A stretch of 52,729 nucleotides of DNA from positions 1 through 52,729 of the forward strand of contig NZ_JAALFH010000049.1 in assembly GCF_011058255.1 (NCBI RefSeq), written 5' to 3'. Made by a program: the position numbers and the translations under genes. The stretch comes from Thioalkalivibrio sp. XN8. GTDB lineage: Bacteria; Pseudomonadota; Gammaproteobacteria; Steroidobacterales; XN24. Positions 20,416 to 25,407 of this stretch are shown one piece after another; position 1 is the first letter of the stretch; each line of letters starts with the position of its first letter. The notes beneath the pieces were generated by a model, which searched no databases, had not been told where the DNA came from, and saw nothing but the letters and a program-made list of their open reading frames with translations.

Positions 20416-22305
20416 ATGAATCCCGAGGAGAAATATCCCCTGCTGTTCAGCATCCAGGCGCCGGCCGACCTGCGGGCGTTGCCGGAGGAGGCCCTGGAAG
20501 CCGTCACCCATGAACTGCGCGGTTACCTGGTCGAGACGATGGCCCGGACGGGCGGGCATTTCGCCGCCAACCTGGGCACCGTGGAGCTGGCCACGCTGCT
20601 GCACTACGTGTTCGACACGCCGCACGACCGGCTGGTATGGGACGTGGGTCACCAGGCCTACCCGCACAAGATTCTCACCGGGCGGCGGGACCGGCTGGCC
20701 AGCATTCGCCAGCAAGGCGGCCTGGCGCCCTTCCCGACCCGCTTCGAGAGCGAGTACGACACCTTCGGCGTCGGCCATTCGAGCACCTCGGTCAGCGCCG
20801 CCCTGGGCATGGCGATCGCGGCCAAGCAGAAGGGCGAGCGACGCCGCGTCGCCGCGATCATCGGCGACGGCGCCCTGACGGCGGGCCTGGCCTACGAGGC
20901 CCTGTGCCATGCGGGCAGCCTCGACGTCGATCTGCTGGTGATCCTGAACGACAACGACATGTCGATTTCCGAGAACGTCGGCGCCATGTCGAACTACCTG
21001 GCCCGGGTGCTCTCCGGCAAGCTCTATTCGCAGATGCGCGAAGGCAGCAAGAAGCTGATCCGCCGCATGCCGACGGTATGGGAGCTGGCCCGCCGCTCCG
21101 AGGAGCACATGAAGGGCATGGTGCTGCCGGGCACGCTGTTCGAGGAGCTCGGGCTGAACTACATCGGCCCGGTGGACGGCCACGACGTGGACGTGCTGCT
21201 GAAGACCCTGCGCAACGTGCGCGACCTCCCCGGCCCGCAGTTCCTGCACGTGGTGACGCGCAAGGGCAAGGGCTACGCGCCGGCCGAGGCCGACCCGATC
21301 CTGTGGCACGGCCCGGGCCCCTTCGACCCGGGCAAGGGCGAGATCCACAAGGCGCCCGCCAAGGGCAAGACCTATTCGGCCATCTTCGGCGACTGGCTGT
21401 GCGACATGGCGGCGGCGGACGAGCGCGTGATCGGCATCACGCCGGCGATGCGCGAAGGCTCCGGCATGGTCGAGTACTCGCGCCGCTTTCCGGAGCGCTA
21501 CTTCGATGTCGGCATCTGCGAACAGCATGCCGTGACCCTGGGCGCGGGCCTTGCCTGCGAGGGTGCGCGGCCGGTGGTGGCCATCTATTCGAGTTTCCTG
21601 CAGCGCGCCTACGACCAGCTGATCCACGACGTGGCGCTGCAGAACCTGCCGGTGGTGTTCGCCCTCGACCGCGGCGGCCTGGTCGGCAACGACGGGCCGA
21701 CGCACCACGGCGCCTACGACCTGTCCTTCCTGCGCTGCATTCCGAACATGACGGTGATGGCGCCGGCGGACGAGAACGAGTGCCGCCAGATGCTGTACAC
21801 GGGCATCACCCTGGACGGGCCGAGCGCCGTGCGCTATCCGCGCGGCACCGGGCCCGGCGCGCCCATCGAGACGGGCATGACGGCGCTGCCGCTCGGCAAG
21901 GCGGAAGTGCGCCGGCGCGGCAAGGGCGTGGCCCTGCTGGCCTTCGGGGCCATGGTGCCGGTGGCCGAGCAGGCGGGCGAGGCGCTGGACGCCACGGTGG
22001 TGAACATGCGTTTCGTCAAGCCGCTGGACGAAGAACTGGTGCTGGCGCTGGCGAAGAGCCACTCCGCGCTGGTGACGCTCGAGGACAACGCGGTGATGGG
22101 CGGCGCCGGCAGTGCCGTGGGCGAATGCCTCGCGGCGCATCGCGTGCTGGTGCCGATGCTGAATATCGGCATTCCCGACCACTTCATCGAGCACGGCTCG
22201 CGCGGCGAGTGCCTGGCGGCAGCCGGGCTCGACGCCGGCTCGGTGCTCGAGGCGGTGCGCGCCTGGCGGCGCGCGCCGGACCTCCGTACCGTGGGAGAAT
22301 CCTGA
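20416..22305 (+). CDS. dxs: 1-deoxy-D-xylulose-5-phosphate synthase
   Basis: A 629-residue thiamine-diphosphate enzyme. It condenses pyruvate and glyceraldehyde-3-phosphate, the first step of the MEP isoprenoid pathway. His48 ([10 protein letters not shown]), the TPP-Mg site GDGALTAG (150-157) with NDNDMSIS (178-185), and the catalytic-Glu block [15 protein letters not shown] are all present. The three transketolase-like domains and the length are standard. The upstream neighbour ispA uses the pathway's products. Confidence 0.97.
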
Positions 22306-22382
22306 ACCCGTCGCGCGGGGTGAATCCCGCCGCGGCGATGCAACGAAAACCCGGGCAATCAGCCTAAACCGGGACCAGTGAC

Positions 22383-23219
22383 ATGAAAGACGTGAGCGAG
22401 GCCGGAGCCATCAACATCGACCCCATAGCCGACGTCCAGGGCAGCGCCGACCTGCGCAACATCCCGATCAACAAGGTCGGGATCAAGGACATCTATCACC
22501 CCGTGCGCATCAAGGAGCGCAGCGGCGGGGAGCAGCACACGGTCGCCAATTTCAACATGTACGTGGACCTGCCCCACAACTTCAAGGGCACCCACATGTC
22601 GCGCTTCGTGGAGATCCTGAACAACCACGAACGCGAGATCTCGGTGAAGTCTTTCCGCGACATGATGAGCGAACTCACCGAGCGCCTCGACGCCGAGTCC
22701 GGGCATATCGAGATGACCTTCCCCTACTTCGTCAACAAGGCCGCCCCGGTCTCCGGCGTGCAGAGCCTGATGGACTACCAGGCCAGCCTGATCGGCGAGC
22801 GGCGCAACGGCGAGAGCATCATCTGGGTCAAGGTGGTGGTCCCCGTGACCAGCCTGTGTCCCTGCTCGAAGAAGATCTCCGACTACGGCGCCCACAACCA
22901 GCGCTCCCATGTCACCATCTCCGCCAAGGTGGACGGGCTGGTCTGGCTGGAGGAACTGATCGAGCTGGCCGAGCAGGAGGCTTCCTGCGAGCTGTTCGGC
23001 ATTCTCAAGCGCCCGGACGAGAAGTGGGTGACCGAGCGCGCCTACGACAACCCCAAGTTCGTCGAGGACCTGGTGCGCGACATCGCCGGGCGGCTGAATG
23101 CCGACGAGCGGATCCGTGCCTACACGGTGGCGTCGGAGAACTTCGAGTCCATCCACAACCACTCGGCCTACGCGCTGATCGAGCGGGACAAGGACCGGGA
23201 CGGGCCGCTGCCGGGCTGA
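22383..23219 (+). CDS. folE2: GTP cyclohydrolase FolE2 (type IB)
   Basis: A 278-residue FolE2. It makes 7,8-dihydroneopterin triphosphate from GTP for folate. Family blocks are [20 protein letters not shown], the active-site cysteine in [19 protein letters not shown], and [20 protein letters not shown]. FolE2 does not require zinc strictly and often replaces or backs up FolE under zinc shortage. The 77-bp upstream region (22306-22382) has a small hairpin (CCCGG 22350-22354 / CCGGG 22369-22373) close to a weak ribosome site, but no Zur-box was seen. Downstream is the palindrome-rich gap. Confidence 0.96.
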
Positions 23220-23255
23220 CGGCCGATCCGGGGCTTGCCCGCCGCTGCGCGCTGC

Positions 23256-23347
23256 GCGGCAGGCCCCTGCGGGGACGCTGTGAATACATCCCTGTACGCT
23301 CGCTCGCGCACGTCCCTGTGCGCGAGCGCCCCGCATCGGCCTGCCGC
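23256..23347 (+). repeat. Nested palindromic element, copy 1
   Basis: Outer arms 23256-23274 and 23329-23347 are complementary at 17 of 19 positions. Between them is a conserved core starting TGTGAATACATCCCTGTA, and an inner perfect 11-bp hairpin (CGCTCGCGCAC at 23301-23311 with its complement at 23318-23328, loop GTCCCT). The core is about 92 percent identical to the reverse complement of copy 2, while the outer arms differ in sequence. It resembles a REP/BIME or small MITE-like element. No transposase is nearby. Confidence 0.7.
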
Positions 23348-23506
23348 ACATCACGCAGCTACCCCCAAGCCCCAGACACCCCAAGCCCTGCCAGCCCGGG
23401 CGCACGCTGGTCCGGCCGCCCGAACGACGCCAGGCACGATCCTCCGCGGGCGCCACCAGGAACGGACCAAAGCGCGTGTCGACCGGGTGCGCGGCCTGGG
23501 CTGCCC

Positions 23507-23609
23507 GGCGGTATGTGCCCCCTTTCCGGGGCGCTCGCGCACAGGACGTGCGCGAGCGAGCCTACAGGGACGTATTCACGGCGGCCCCGGAAAGGGGGCG
23601 CGTGCCGCC
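23507..23609 (-). repeat. Nested palindromic element, copy 2 (inverted relative to copy 1)
   Basis: Outer 26-nt arms 23507-23532 and 23584-23609 are complementary at 23 of 26 positions, and the three exceptions are T/G, so all would pair as G-U in a plus-strand RNA. The inner hairpin has perfect 11-bp arms (23532-23542 and 23548-23558) with loop AGGAC. The core matches copy 1 in reverse complement. Arm sequence (CCCCCTTTCCGGGGC) is unrelated to the copy 1 arms. Confidence 0.7.
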
Positions 23610-23628
23610 GGGCATTCCAACCACGAAC

Positions 23629-24129
23629 TCACGCCTGACGCGACCTTGTGCGCGGCGTCACCCACATGGTGATGTCCGCCGCCGCAACCTCGACGCCCTC
23701 CCGGTCCCGGACGCTGACCGCGATCACCAGGTTGTAGGGCTCTGGTGAAGACTCGGGCTTGACGCGGGGCCGGGCCGTGGCCGTGATCGTGCCGCGCGCC
23801 TTCGCCAGGTAGCGCACGTCCATGCCCTTGGGAATCCAGCGCATGTCGGCGGGAATGCTGACGTCGGTGACCAGGCCGGCGCAGAGTTCCGCCAGGTTGC
23901 ACAGCGCGATGGCGTGCACGGTGCCGATGTGGTTCTGCACGCGGCGGCGCTGGCGCAGCTGCGCCTGGCACCGGCCGGGCTCCAGCGCCAGCAGCAGCGG
24001 CCTGATCGAGCCGAAGTACGGCGCCTTGAAACATACGATGCGGGAGAACAGCCAGCGGCCCGCCGGGCGGCCGCCGAGCCGCCGCCACAGCCGCAGCGCC
24101 AGCACTTCCGGGGCGCCGCCGGCCGCCAA
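23629..24129 (-). CDS. DUF4442 hotdog-fold protein (thioesterase-like)
   Basis: A protein of up to 166 residues in the DUF4442 / hotdog family. The core blocks are FSRIVCFKAPYFGSIRPLLL, QNHIGTVHAIALCNLAELCA and IPKGMDVRYLAKARG. Members of this superfamily often hydrolyse acyl-CoA or acyl carrier thioesters, but the substrate is unknown here. The start is uncertain: TTG at 24129 lies three bases after the kinase stop, whereas GTG at 24105 (V-LALRLWRRLGG) matches the usual family N terminus. It is the last gene of the long minus-strand string. Confidence 0.75.
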   Translation of the reverse strand: MAAGGAPEVLALRLWRRLGGRPAGRWLFSRIVCFKAPYFGSIRPLLLALEPGRCQAQLRQRRRVQNHIGTVHAIALCNLAELCAGLVTDVSIPADMRWIPKGMDVRYLAKARGTITATARPRVKPESSPEPYNLVIAVSVRDREGVEVAAADITMWVTPRTRSRQA

Positions 24130-24132
24130 CCG

Positions 24133-25407
24133 CTAGCCCTGCAGGCGCGCGATCAGCGCCTTGAGGAACATCCGGTTGAACCGCAGCTGGCAGGCCGCGG
24201 ACAGGGTCTCGAGCAGCGTCGAGCTCACCTGCAGCACGACCACGGGGCCCAGGGCCCGGATGGTCGCCTGCCGCCGGGCGTTCGGCATCACGCTGCTCTC
24301 GCCGAAACAATCGCCGGCGCCGAGGCGCCCGAGCTGGGCGCCGTTCGCCTCCACCGCGACGTCGCCGCTGACGATCACGTAGAAACGATCGTCCATGTCG
24401 CCCTGGCGCACGATGTCCTGGCCCTCGCTGTACTCCCGCCACTCGGCCGCCTTGATCAGCTCGCGGATCTCGTTGTGGGAGAAATCATGGAAGAAGCGCA
24501 GGCCGCGCAGGTTGGCCACGCGCTCGCGCGCGTCGATGACGTTGCGCGCGCTCCGCAGCGACTGGTGCACGCTGGTGAGCGCGGCGGCGAATTCCAGGCC
24601 GCTGGAGAAGCGGTCGGCGGGCTTCTTGCGCATGGCACGCCAGACCACCTCCTCGAGGTCCTCCGGCACGTCCGCACGCAGCCGGTGAATCGGCTGCGGC
24701 GTGGCGAACACGATTTCGTGCAGGAGCTTGGCGAGATTCGGGGCCTTGAACGGCCGGGCACCCGTCAGCAGCTCGTACATGACCGCCCCGAGGGCATACA
24801 GGTCCGAGCGCGGGGTGATTTCTTCGGCGCGGACCTGCTCCGGCGACATGTAGCTCGGCGAACCGGCCACGCCGCGGATGCCCGACACCTCGCCGTCGGT
24901 CCACTGGGCGATGCCGAAATCGATCACCCGCACCTCGTTGTCGATGGTGAGCATGATGTTGCTCGGCTTGATGTCGCGATGGACGATGCCGCGGGTGTGG
25001 GCATAGTGCAGCGCGCGCACCGCGCTGAACATGATGCGCACGACCTCCGGGATCGGCAGCAGGTTGCCCTGGTGACAATAGGCCGTGAGCGTGCGCGCGC
25101 CCTGTACGTGCTCCATCACCACGTAGCGCCGCCCATTCTCCTCGCCGGCGTCGTAGACGGGGAGGATGTTGGGGTGCTGCATGCGCCCCACCAGCCGCGC
25201 CTCGTTGAAAAACATCTTGCGGGCGGCTTCCTGCTCGCGGGCATCCTGCGTGCCGACGTCGGTGTACAGCTTGATGGCGACGTCGCGCCCGTAGAACGGG
25301 TCATGCGACAAGTACACCATGCCGGAGCTGCCCCGCCCGACTTCCCGGACGATGCGGTATTTCCCGATCTTCTCCGGCAACGTCGACTGTTCGCGCCTTA
25401 CGGCCAT
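24133..25407 (-). CDS. Ser/Thr protein kinase with C-terminal cyclic-nucleotide-binding domain
   Basis: A 424-residue Hanks-type kinase (about 17-280) joined to a CRP-like cNMP-binding domain (about 306-415). Kinase motifs are intact: GRGSSGMVY, catalytic Lys46 (VAIKLY), HRDIKPSN (143-150), DFG (163-165) and SPE (188-190). In the second domain, GDCFGESSVM and NARRQATIRA keep the Glu370 and Arg379 positions that contact cyclic nucleotide. There is no transmembrane helix, so it is cytoplasmic. It resembles cNMP-regulated kinases such as PKG in layout but with the domain order reversed. It lies 10 bp after pgpA. Ligand and substrates are unknown. Confidence 0.88.
   Translation of the reverse strand: MAVRREQSTLPEKIGKYRIVREVGRGSSGMVYLSHDPFYGRDVAIKLYTDVGTQDAREQEAARKMFFNEARLVGRMQHPNILPVYDAGEENGRRYVVMEHVQGARTLTAYCHQGNLLPIPEVVRIMFSAVRALHYAHTRGIVHRDIKPSNIMLTIDNEVRVIDFGIAQWTDGEVSGIRGVAGSPSYMSPEQVRAEEITPRSDLYALGAVMYELLTGARPFKAPNLAKLLHEIVFATPQPIHRLRADVPEDLEEVVWRAMRKKPADRFSSGLEFAAALTSVHQSLRSARNVIDARERVANLRGLRFFHDFSHNEIRELIKAAEWREYSEGQDIVRQGDMDDRFYVIVSGDVAVEANGAQLGRLGAGDCFGESSVMPNARRQATIRALGPVVVLQVSSTLLETLSAACQLRFNRMFLKALIARLQG

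Follow-up and report, generated by a model that had tools for sequence, protein, structure and literature searches.

In gammaproteobacteria, CsrA/RsmA governs carbon storage, motility, biofilms and virulence; a few dedicated small RNAs (sRNAs) are believed to be the main determinant of how much of the protein is free. The sRNAs that sequester it are encoded by one or a few genes per genome and bear several sites each. In integron attC sites, the paired arms are free in sequence, the unpaired marks are fixed, and one strand is favoured. The CsrA consensus obtained by SELEX and given in the text of PMC7652899 is RUACARGGAUGU, in which ACA and GGA are invariant; the selected RNAs mostly have 6-nt hairpin loops with AC paired with GU, and a CsrA dimer bridges sites 10–63 nt apart, with an optimum above 18 nt (PMC7652899). 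According to the NMR work described in the text of PMC4005645, the site is ANGGAX on a C-G-closed stem, and N is dispensable, being missing in the RsmZ SL3 and SL4 pentaloops. An Alcanivorax sRNA study names, in its text, two CsrA-related sRNAs (PMC9788540).

Dispersed palindromes form the other group of described systems. As presented in the text of PMC3733652, GTAG/CGTC repeats are short palindrome families, many of them oppositely oriented and many in Proteobacteria, which is also how the elements described below appear; however, each of these families has its own stem and a GTAG or CGTC tag at one terminus, whereas our elements have a free stem and a variable base after GTA. Neither CATCC nor GGATG occurs in that text, figures lying outside the scope of this comparison. 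Bacterial MITEs are known to yield sRNAs, and CsrA is unmentioned in the text of the paper that reports it (PMC5896051).

We analysed a stretch of 52,729 nucleotides from Thioalkalivibrio sp. XN8 (hereafter, the window), in which two inverted nested palindromes occupy the gap where folE2 and a DUF4442 gene converge. Genomes and loci are denoted by G and L numbers where they have to be told apart, and Thioalkalivibrio sp. XN8 is G000. The features of the region are as follows; R1 is a model of the element whose construction is given below.

22383–23219, plus strand: folE2 (GTP cyclohydrolase), flanking gene (PF02649, E 1.4e-98)
23227–23376: copy 1 (repeat scan, fold); the plus strand is the conserved GTGAATAC strand and the minus strand the predicted functional RNA strand
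23250–23353, plus strand: R1 model match of copy 1 (76.4 bits, E 1.7e-17)
23280–23296, plus strand: hairpin C of copy 1, GTGAATACATCCCTGTA; the minus strand reads UAC-AGGGAU-GUA, with G before it and the bulge UUCAC
23311–23318, minus strand: hairpin B loop of copy 1, C-AGGGAC-G, an ANGGAX hexaloop (sequence, predicted fold)
23497–23619: copy 2, inverted (repeat scan, fold); the minus strand is the conserved GTGAATAC strand and the plus strand the predicted functional RNA strand
23507–23609, minus strand: R1 model match of copy 2 (78.0 bits, E 6.4e-18)
23507–23532: left arm of the copy 2 outer stem, pairing with 23584–23609 over 26 bp including three U-G on the plus strand
23542–23548, plus strand: hairpin B loop of copy 2, C-AGGAC-G, a pentaloop without N (sequence, predicted fold)
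23565–23572, plus strand: hairpin C loop of copy 2, C-AGGGAC-G (sequence, predicted fold)
23584–23609: right arm of the copy 2 outer stem, pairing with 23507–23532
23629–24129, minus strand: DUF4442 protein gene, convergent flank (PF14539, E 2.5e-53)

The original prediction, made from the sequence alone, had described two inverted nested palindromes in a convergent 3' gap. Both are real: a repeat scan recovered the outer arms of each copy (one inverted repeat per copy, of 48 nt with 77% complementarity and of 36 nt with 86%) as well as the copy-to-copy match (46 nt at 91% and 19 nt at 100%), and the two genes listed converge on the gap. Its ends, however, had been drawn too short, and the picture of a hairpin inside a hairpin is too simple: each copy is one long stem bearing two small hairpins side by side. 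The core is as well conserved as had been stated (92% identity across 64 nt), and the non-Watson-Crick outer pairs of copy 2 are indeed all G-U on the plus strand, within continuous pairing. As RNA, copy 1 folds with z-scores of −8.3 and −9.6 for the two strands and copy 2 with −11.0 and −9.5, values that none of 200 dinucleotide shuffles reached in either case. A 17-mer of the core, allowed up to three mismatches, occurs twice in the window against 0.03 expected. No sigma-70-like promoter was seen in the gap, and a scan of it found no intrinsic terminator. The gene adjoining the DUF4442 gene (24133–25407, minus strand) encodes a protein kinase domain fused to a cyclic-nucleotide-binding domain.

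The two copies belong to a repeat family, as had been proposed. A 64-nt core query found nine strong copies in this genome, arranged as four '+ then −' pairs, whose starts lie 181–275 bp apart, and one extra copy beside one pair. With the core 17-mer as a pattern, allowing up to two mismatches, 1,259 matches were obtained over 20 genomes, ranging from 1 to about 600 per genome (11 in G000, 11 in G001, 3 in G002, 87 in G025, 118 in G295 and 600 in G305), against 0–3 per genome for the reversed pattern. This count misses variants, as in G124, which has 1 pattern match versus 14 model matches. A core 17-mer scan of named genomes yielded at least 120 loci. Within Gammaproteobacteria, R1 matched 54 of 274 genomes, representing 48 of 222 genera; a sample of 299 genomes from the phylum gave 17 with matches, every one of them gammaproteobacterial (this genome is included in both surveys); 14 or 13 candidates were scored per genome, so that the copy numbers from these surveys are lower bounds. 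Among the loci listed by the 17-mer scan, 79 of 80 titles name the class or taxa that we take to be gammaproteobacterial, and one says only Proteobacteria. A 62-nt consensus had no match at E 0.01 in E. coli, plasmid and phage records, which is weak evidence given that the element is short and variable. Rfam covariance models gave no match up to E 1 across window positions 22000–25000 and, at gathering scores, none on the elements of 12 loci, the lone hit (Alpha_RBS in L111) lying off the element. No such repeat family was found described among the papers listed by searches of the open full-text literature, a scope that leaves aside subscription papers, supplements and figures, and CATCC is absent from the main text of the two REP surveys compared. 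The palindromes thus belong to a large and apparently undescribed family of hairpin repeats in gammaproteobacteria.

Read in the orientation of the core, the element consists of arm A, AC(A)C-GCC-GTGAA-TAC-RTCCCT-GTA-GGC-TCG, arm B, C-RTCCNT-G, arm B', ACGG and arm A'. We examined 74 of 115 sites that share one geometry, chosen with a regular expression on the B loop irrespective of arm pairing. At the inner 22 positions of the A stem, Watson-Crick pairs were present in 45–64 of the 74 sites, compared with 14–25 outside the stem, and all four pair types occurred at 19 of these positions. A pairing filter was passed by 47 of the 74 sites, of which 42 were aligned to give alignment A1 and model R1. 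In this alignment, 92.8% of the cells pair, a percentage inflated because the sites had been prefiltered for pairing; none of 500 shuffles reached it, and slid structures gave at most 41%. The pairing of the arms beyond chance, which the original prediction had made a test of its ideas, was borne out in these 42 pairing-filtered copies by a covariation score of 0.837 versus 0.185 for shuffled alignments (0/500 reaching it). Changes on both sides were found at 36 of 40 pairs (reached by 2/500 shuffles), and the number of pair types was reached by 82/500. By eye, the lower stem of hairpin C covaries too (GCC/GGC, GTC/GAC, GGC/GCC and GAC/GTC).

The best functional clue is given by the conserved loops, which the earlier description had missed. 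The constant part of the element is that the strand opposite GTGAATAC, hereafter the GGA strand, forms two hairpins, spaced by about 23 nt, whose loops read C-ANGGAX-G. On this strand hairpin C is UAC-AGGGAY-GUA. At loci found by the hairpin C 17-mer alone, GGA was located in the loop of 96 of 104 hairpins B, the other eight lacking it, as against 47 of 835 control hairpins of the same loci; this test started from 121 sites, 17 of which have no 5-bp hairpin and were left uncounted, although several of these still have CATCCNTG on shorter stems. For loop and mismatch statistics, 273 R1 matches were reduced to 132 ungapped 102-mers and then to 117 non-redundant copies. In both loops the letters A, G, G and A are almost invariant (each in 110–116 of 116 copies); N and X are variable. 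A C-G pair closes the two loops in 110 and 109 of 116 copies, respectively. Pentaloops (n = 15, copies not de-duplicated) lack N in 12 cases and X in three. The stem of hairpin C varies under the kept loop, with TAC/GTA in 93, TCC/GGA in 6, CCC/GGG in 6 and CAC/GTG in 3 of 116 copies.

These features agree with the sites of CsrB/CsrC and RsmX/Y/Z as described in the texts of PMC4005645 and PMC7652899: GGA lies in C-G-closed ANGGAX loops, several sites occur per RNA, and N may be missing. An ANGGAX or AGGAX loop on a C-G-closed hairpin is present in the elements, including both window copies, and hairpin C of copy 1, read on the minus strand, matches the SELEX consensus exactly. The distance from GGA to GGA is 23 nt in the consensus and 24 nt in both window copies, which is inside the range bridged by a dimer. 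The elements differ from the CsrB and RsmZ sRNAs in being a dispersed repeat with two sites each and 1 to about 600 pattern matches per genome, and in their long stem of free sequence.

Hairpins of the form xxxC-ANGGAX-Gxxx numbered 124 in 800 kb of G305, versus 1, 2, 4, 8, 5, 5 and 24 for seven altered cores. Doublets of GGA-loop hairpins on the same strand proved an unspecific measure in this genome: there were 67 (equal for the complement TCC), 2–28 for twelve other triplets and 71 for GCA. In 15 of 90 G305 sites, a downstream segment of the core strand holds GGATGGC, and by eye this segment forms CCATGGATGG and TTTTGCAGGAGCAAAA hairpins, placing GGA loops on the other strand too. At L338, L340, L344 and other G305 loci, a composite insert lies in or replaces hairpin B and consists of an CCATGGATGG hairpin, a TGAATG spacer and a stem around GCAGGAGC, with its GGA-loop hairpins on the strand opposite that of the main module. 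Another G305 repeat, ATTCCGCCATGGACTGGCGGAATCCAGTGCCATGGATGGCA (L332:8916 and L333:9436-9459), likewise has two GGA-loop hairpins.

The strand that carries GGA is also distinguished by its mismatches. In the A stem of the 117 copies, mismatches read on the GGA strand comprise 88 G-U versus 40 A-C (p 2.7e-5); in the 105 well-paired copies there are 59 G-U, 41 G-A, 19 A-C and 15 G-G (G-U versus A-C, p 6e-6). In the B stem the same tendency is less marked (19 G-U versus 8 A-C, p 0.05). Since R1 was built on the opposite strand, its own G-U preference works against the bias observed. A folded GGA strand, as RNA or as single-stranded DNA, explains it. Covariation and strand-biased mismatches support the earlier suggestion of a structured RNA, the transcript itself being predicted.

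Gene context was counted for 150 single copies with a simple home-made ORF caller, omitting 41 copies at locus edges, three inside genes and the arrays L224–L226. The flanking genes were oriented ++ in 54, −− in 43, convergent in 37 and divergent in 16 cases, compared with 177, 136, 68 and 99 of 480 background gaps of at least 100 bp. Copies thus favour gene ends, avoid divergent promoters and prefer neither strand; in G305, divergent gaps were not avoided (23 of 89 single copies). Gene orientation had been considered as a proof of the RNA strand, and among the 150 copies no preference was detected, with our home-made ORF callers, for the strand that would place GGA in a neighbouring mRNA. Of all results, this missing preference speaks most strongly against a role confined to the local mRNA, and it fits titration, for which any transcript counts, or a role at the DNA level.

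The enrichment in convergent gaps (37/150 versus 68/480), the depletion in divergent ones (16/150 versus 99/480) and the very stable stems are what a bidirectional terminator or 3'-end stabilizer for convergent genes would show, the loops then being incidental. At least five T within 9 nt after the stem were found on the core strand in 12 of 117 copies (10%, versus 3.9% at random), but the T-run is absent from the other 105, and from 115 of 117 on the GGA strand. Terminators have no need of fixed loops, and the scan of the window gap was negative. We therefore do not assign the elements to intrinsic terminators and regard this explanation as very improbable.

CsrA itself is encoded in the same genome: csrA of G000 has the canonical sequence, including the VHR segment, the arginine of which we take to be R44. 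In a search of 80 genomes out of 107 first listed, csrA was present in 55 of 59 carriers and also in 17 of 21 element-free genomes, so that co-occurrence alone is not informative. It was not found in the carriers G066, G126 and G157, which are 67–88% complete, or in G252, which is 98% complete and has 10 copies; in G252 a protein query, run without a positive control, was negative as well, and this genome is either a real exception or has an assembly gap. The 4.8-Mb genome G439, with at least 13 elements, has nine csrA homologues.

Regarding mobility, the window pair is missing in two relatives. The aligned pieces of folE2 and its neighbour are just 5 nt apart in G001; in G002 the two genes have about 100 nt between them, including a small hairpin. 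The copies in the window are thus not essential. Neither arm is seen at the empty site of G001, which leaves unsupported the idea that arms are copied from the target at each insertion; an insertion boundary or target duplication was not readable at the empty sites of G001 and G002, where the window site is too diverged, or at the orthologous empty sites described below. A copy in G000 (C15:108846-108882; L010, L324), which retains only hairpin B, and one in G001 (C6:43401-43463; L031) are apparently orthologous and have similar arms by eye.

In other genomes, a carrier can be recognized. In G092, the module lies inside a 209-bp element with terminal repeats of about 22 bp (six copies, by eye), and in G305, a regular expression found both TATACC/GGTATA ends at 28 of 90 sites, mostly about 160 bp apart; the remaining sites fall by flanking motif into four further groups and eight unsorted sites. 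These backbones differ, so the module is carried by several different small elements, and it also occurs without a visible carrier, as in the window, where no terminal inverted repeats were seen. The earlier proposal of a MITE fits the carriers of some genomes, no carrier being visible at the window site. The G092 and G305 copies resemble bacterial MITEs (Coxiella QMITE1/2, Neisseria Correia, ERIC) in lying inside small terminal-inverted-repeat elements; unlike MITEs, the module occurs in several repeat backbones.

A REP/BIME element had also been proposed. Like REP, BIME and REPIN sequences, the elements are extragenic palindromes, often in inverted doublets and enriched in convergent gaps. 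Unlike them, they conserve the loops rather than the stem sequence. A Y1 (RAYT) transposase was found in G000 (two), G002 (two) and G058 (one) among seven genomes searched, and was absent from the carriers G001, G025, G038 and G049. REP/BIME in the strict RAYT sense is rejected because four carriers, one of them with 87 pattern matches, have no Y1 transposase and the stems are not conserved. The GTAG tag with a conserved stem expected of REP/RAYT was likewise not recovered: GTA is followed by G in 41 of 74 copies, by C in 24, by A in 6 and by T in 3, and the stem is free.

The same data bear on a broader DNA-level explanation, in which the GGA strand folds as single-stranded DNA and is cut or moved by a recombinase or an HUH transposase, the loops being recognition marks, after the models of integron attC sites, IS200/IS605 ends and REPINs. 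One strand is favoured and copies are many, and of the neighbouring copies up to 500 bp apart, 27 are '+-', 1 '-+', 12 '++' and 6 '--', so that the inverted ones nearly all have one arrangement, as in a REPIN doublet. Fixed unpaired marks on variable paired arms recall attC, whereas our copies are scattered and their pairs mostly inverted. However, the four Y1-less carriers are unexpected, even though G000 has two such genes; the G092 and G305 copies lie in elements with terminal repeats of their own and could be moved by another transposase; and the tolerance at N and X together with the loss of N fits CsrA and is not predicted by the recombinase reading. We consider this explanation unlikely. 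Tandem direct arrays were also noted, namely L224 (G510:C1, about 94.4–95.6 kb) with six model matches at a period of about 227 bp and L226 (G532) with four at about 273 bp.

The evolution of the stems could be followed at one orthologous site, which we take to lie between two genes of an atu-like operon, the gene names being read from translations. All 61 genomes examined from one genus matched the query region, some of them solely through the element itself. Among 30 loci fetched, 16 have the element, four a variant, three a hairpin without the core (L262, L263 and L270) and seven only a 32-nt spacer. In the variant (L264 and L266–L268), the two CATCCNTG (CANGGATG) loops are kept, and a linker ACGCTCC...CACATCCNTGTG... 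replaces GTGAATAC. Across the 16 elements, two-sided change affects 29 of 40 pairs, and pairing is present in 95.8% of the cells (0/500 shuffles for either), with a covariation score of 0.557 versus 0.156 when shuffled (0/500). Counting both stems, A and B, the cells that depart from Watson-Crick pairing comprise 11 G-A and 7 G-U; A-C is absent. In L256, the stem of hairpin C has turned into CCC/GGG under an unchanged loop. That the core was inserted into pre-existing palindromes had been considered because the G491 copies have a common core and differing arms; this series shows arms changing in place by descent, and the three core-less hairpins may be precursors or deletion products.

Between near relatives, two-sided and one-sided changes number 5 and 0 in L244/L245, 2 and 0 in L245/L251 and 3 and 0 in L257/L271, and several two-sided changes are, by eye, adjacent transversions without a paired intermediate. 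Contrary pairs are L246/L247, with 0 and 3, and L249/L250, with 1 and 1. Since arm pairs mostly change on both sides at once, DNA-level correction may contribute, and the series suggests that one arm serves as the template for correcting the other. Taken to its end, this becomes an account without any RNA function, in which an old palindrome family spread by MITEs is kept perfect by template-switch (quasipalindrome) correction during replication. The mostly two-sided changes in near relatives, the core-less hairpins and empty sites (3/30 and 7/30) and the missing gene-strand preference are in its favour, but it is at odds with the contrary pairs and fails on the fixed loops atop changing stems, the A-N-G-G-A-X tolerance in two loops and the strand-biased mismatches; we judge it improbable. 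Loop constancy and strand-biased mismatches separately support selection for the folded strand. The original statement that pairing without conserved sequence means selected structure holds only in part, since the two-sided changes leave room for templated correction.

Taken together, these sequence data indicate that the element is probably an RNA module binding CsrA/RsmA bivalently, dispersed in the manner of REPs and, in some genomes, carried by MITEs. From the family, the fold, the strand bias of the mismatches, the constancy of the loops and csrA in the same genome, all of which were observed, we infer that the elements are transcribed, bind CsrA and titrate or tether it. When transcribed, the strand opposite GTGAATAC would fold into one long stem of about 25–30 bp carrying two small hairpins. 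Any self-complementary sequence would suffice for the long stem, which would serve only to present the loops, so that its sequence is free. Hairpin C would be UAC-AGGGAY-GUA with a UUCAC bulge, and hairpin B a variable stem with a C-ANGGAX-G loop. With two GGA loops about 23 nt apart that have the sequence, size and closing pair of high-affinity sites, the element would be suited to one CsrA dimer, engaging both faces. In large numbers, the elements would act like the sRNAs CsrB and RsmZ and titrate CsrA; alternatively, CsrA may be tethered to the 3' ends of element-carrying transcripts. The arms seem to be renewed together, probably through templated arm-to-arm correction plus selection.

A wider version of this reading, which we offer tentatively and hold to be rather less than an even bet, is a class-wide mobile CsrA sponge. 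The two-site aptamer would travel as cargo of various unrelated miniature transposons and also in the form of free palindromes, in up to hundreds of copies per genome, its stems rewritten arm to arm and its docking loops fixed; some Methylotuvimicrobium copies would bear a second, differently built GGA-hairpin module on the other strand. With GGA modules on both strands, either direction of transcription would give a decoy, and if the module spread as selfish DNA, the free level of a global regulator would be set by selfish DNA.

Even without CsrA, the two-sided evolution of the arms provides a natural setting in which to test templated mutation of palindromes. If the CsrA reading is true, a concrete function would be given to a family of intergenic palindromes, a question long open for REP-like DNA, and the elements would be ready-made bivalent aptamers. 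Docking sites for CsrA may then be scattered by the tens to hundreds through the genomes of some bacteria, and if the repeats hold CsrA, their copy number, for which the 20 genomes gave between 1 and about 600 pattern matches, would be a heritable setting of the network; models of the Csr regulon in carrier species would need revising.
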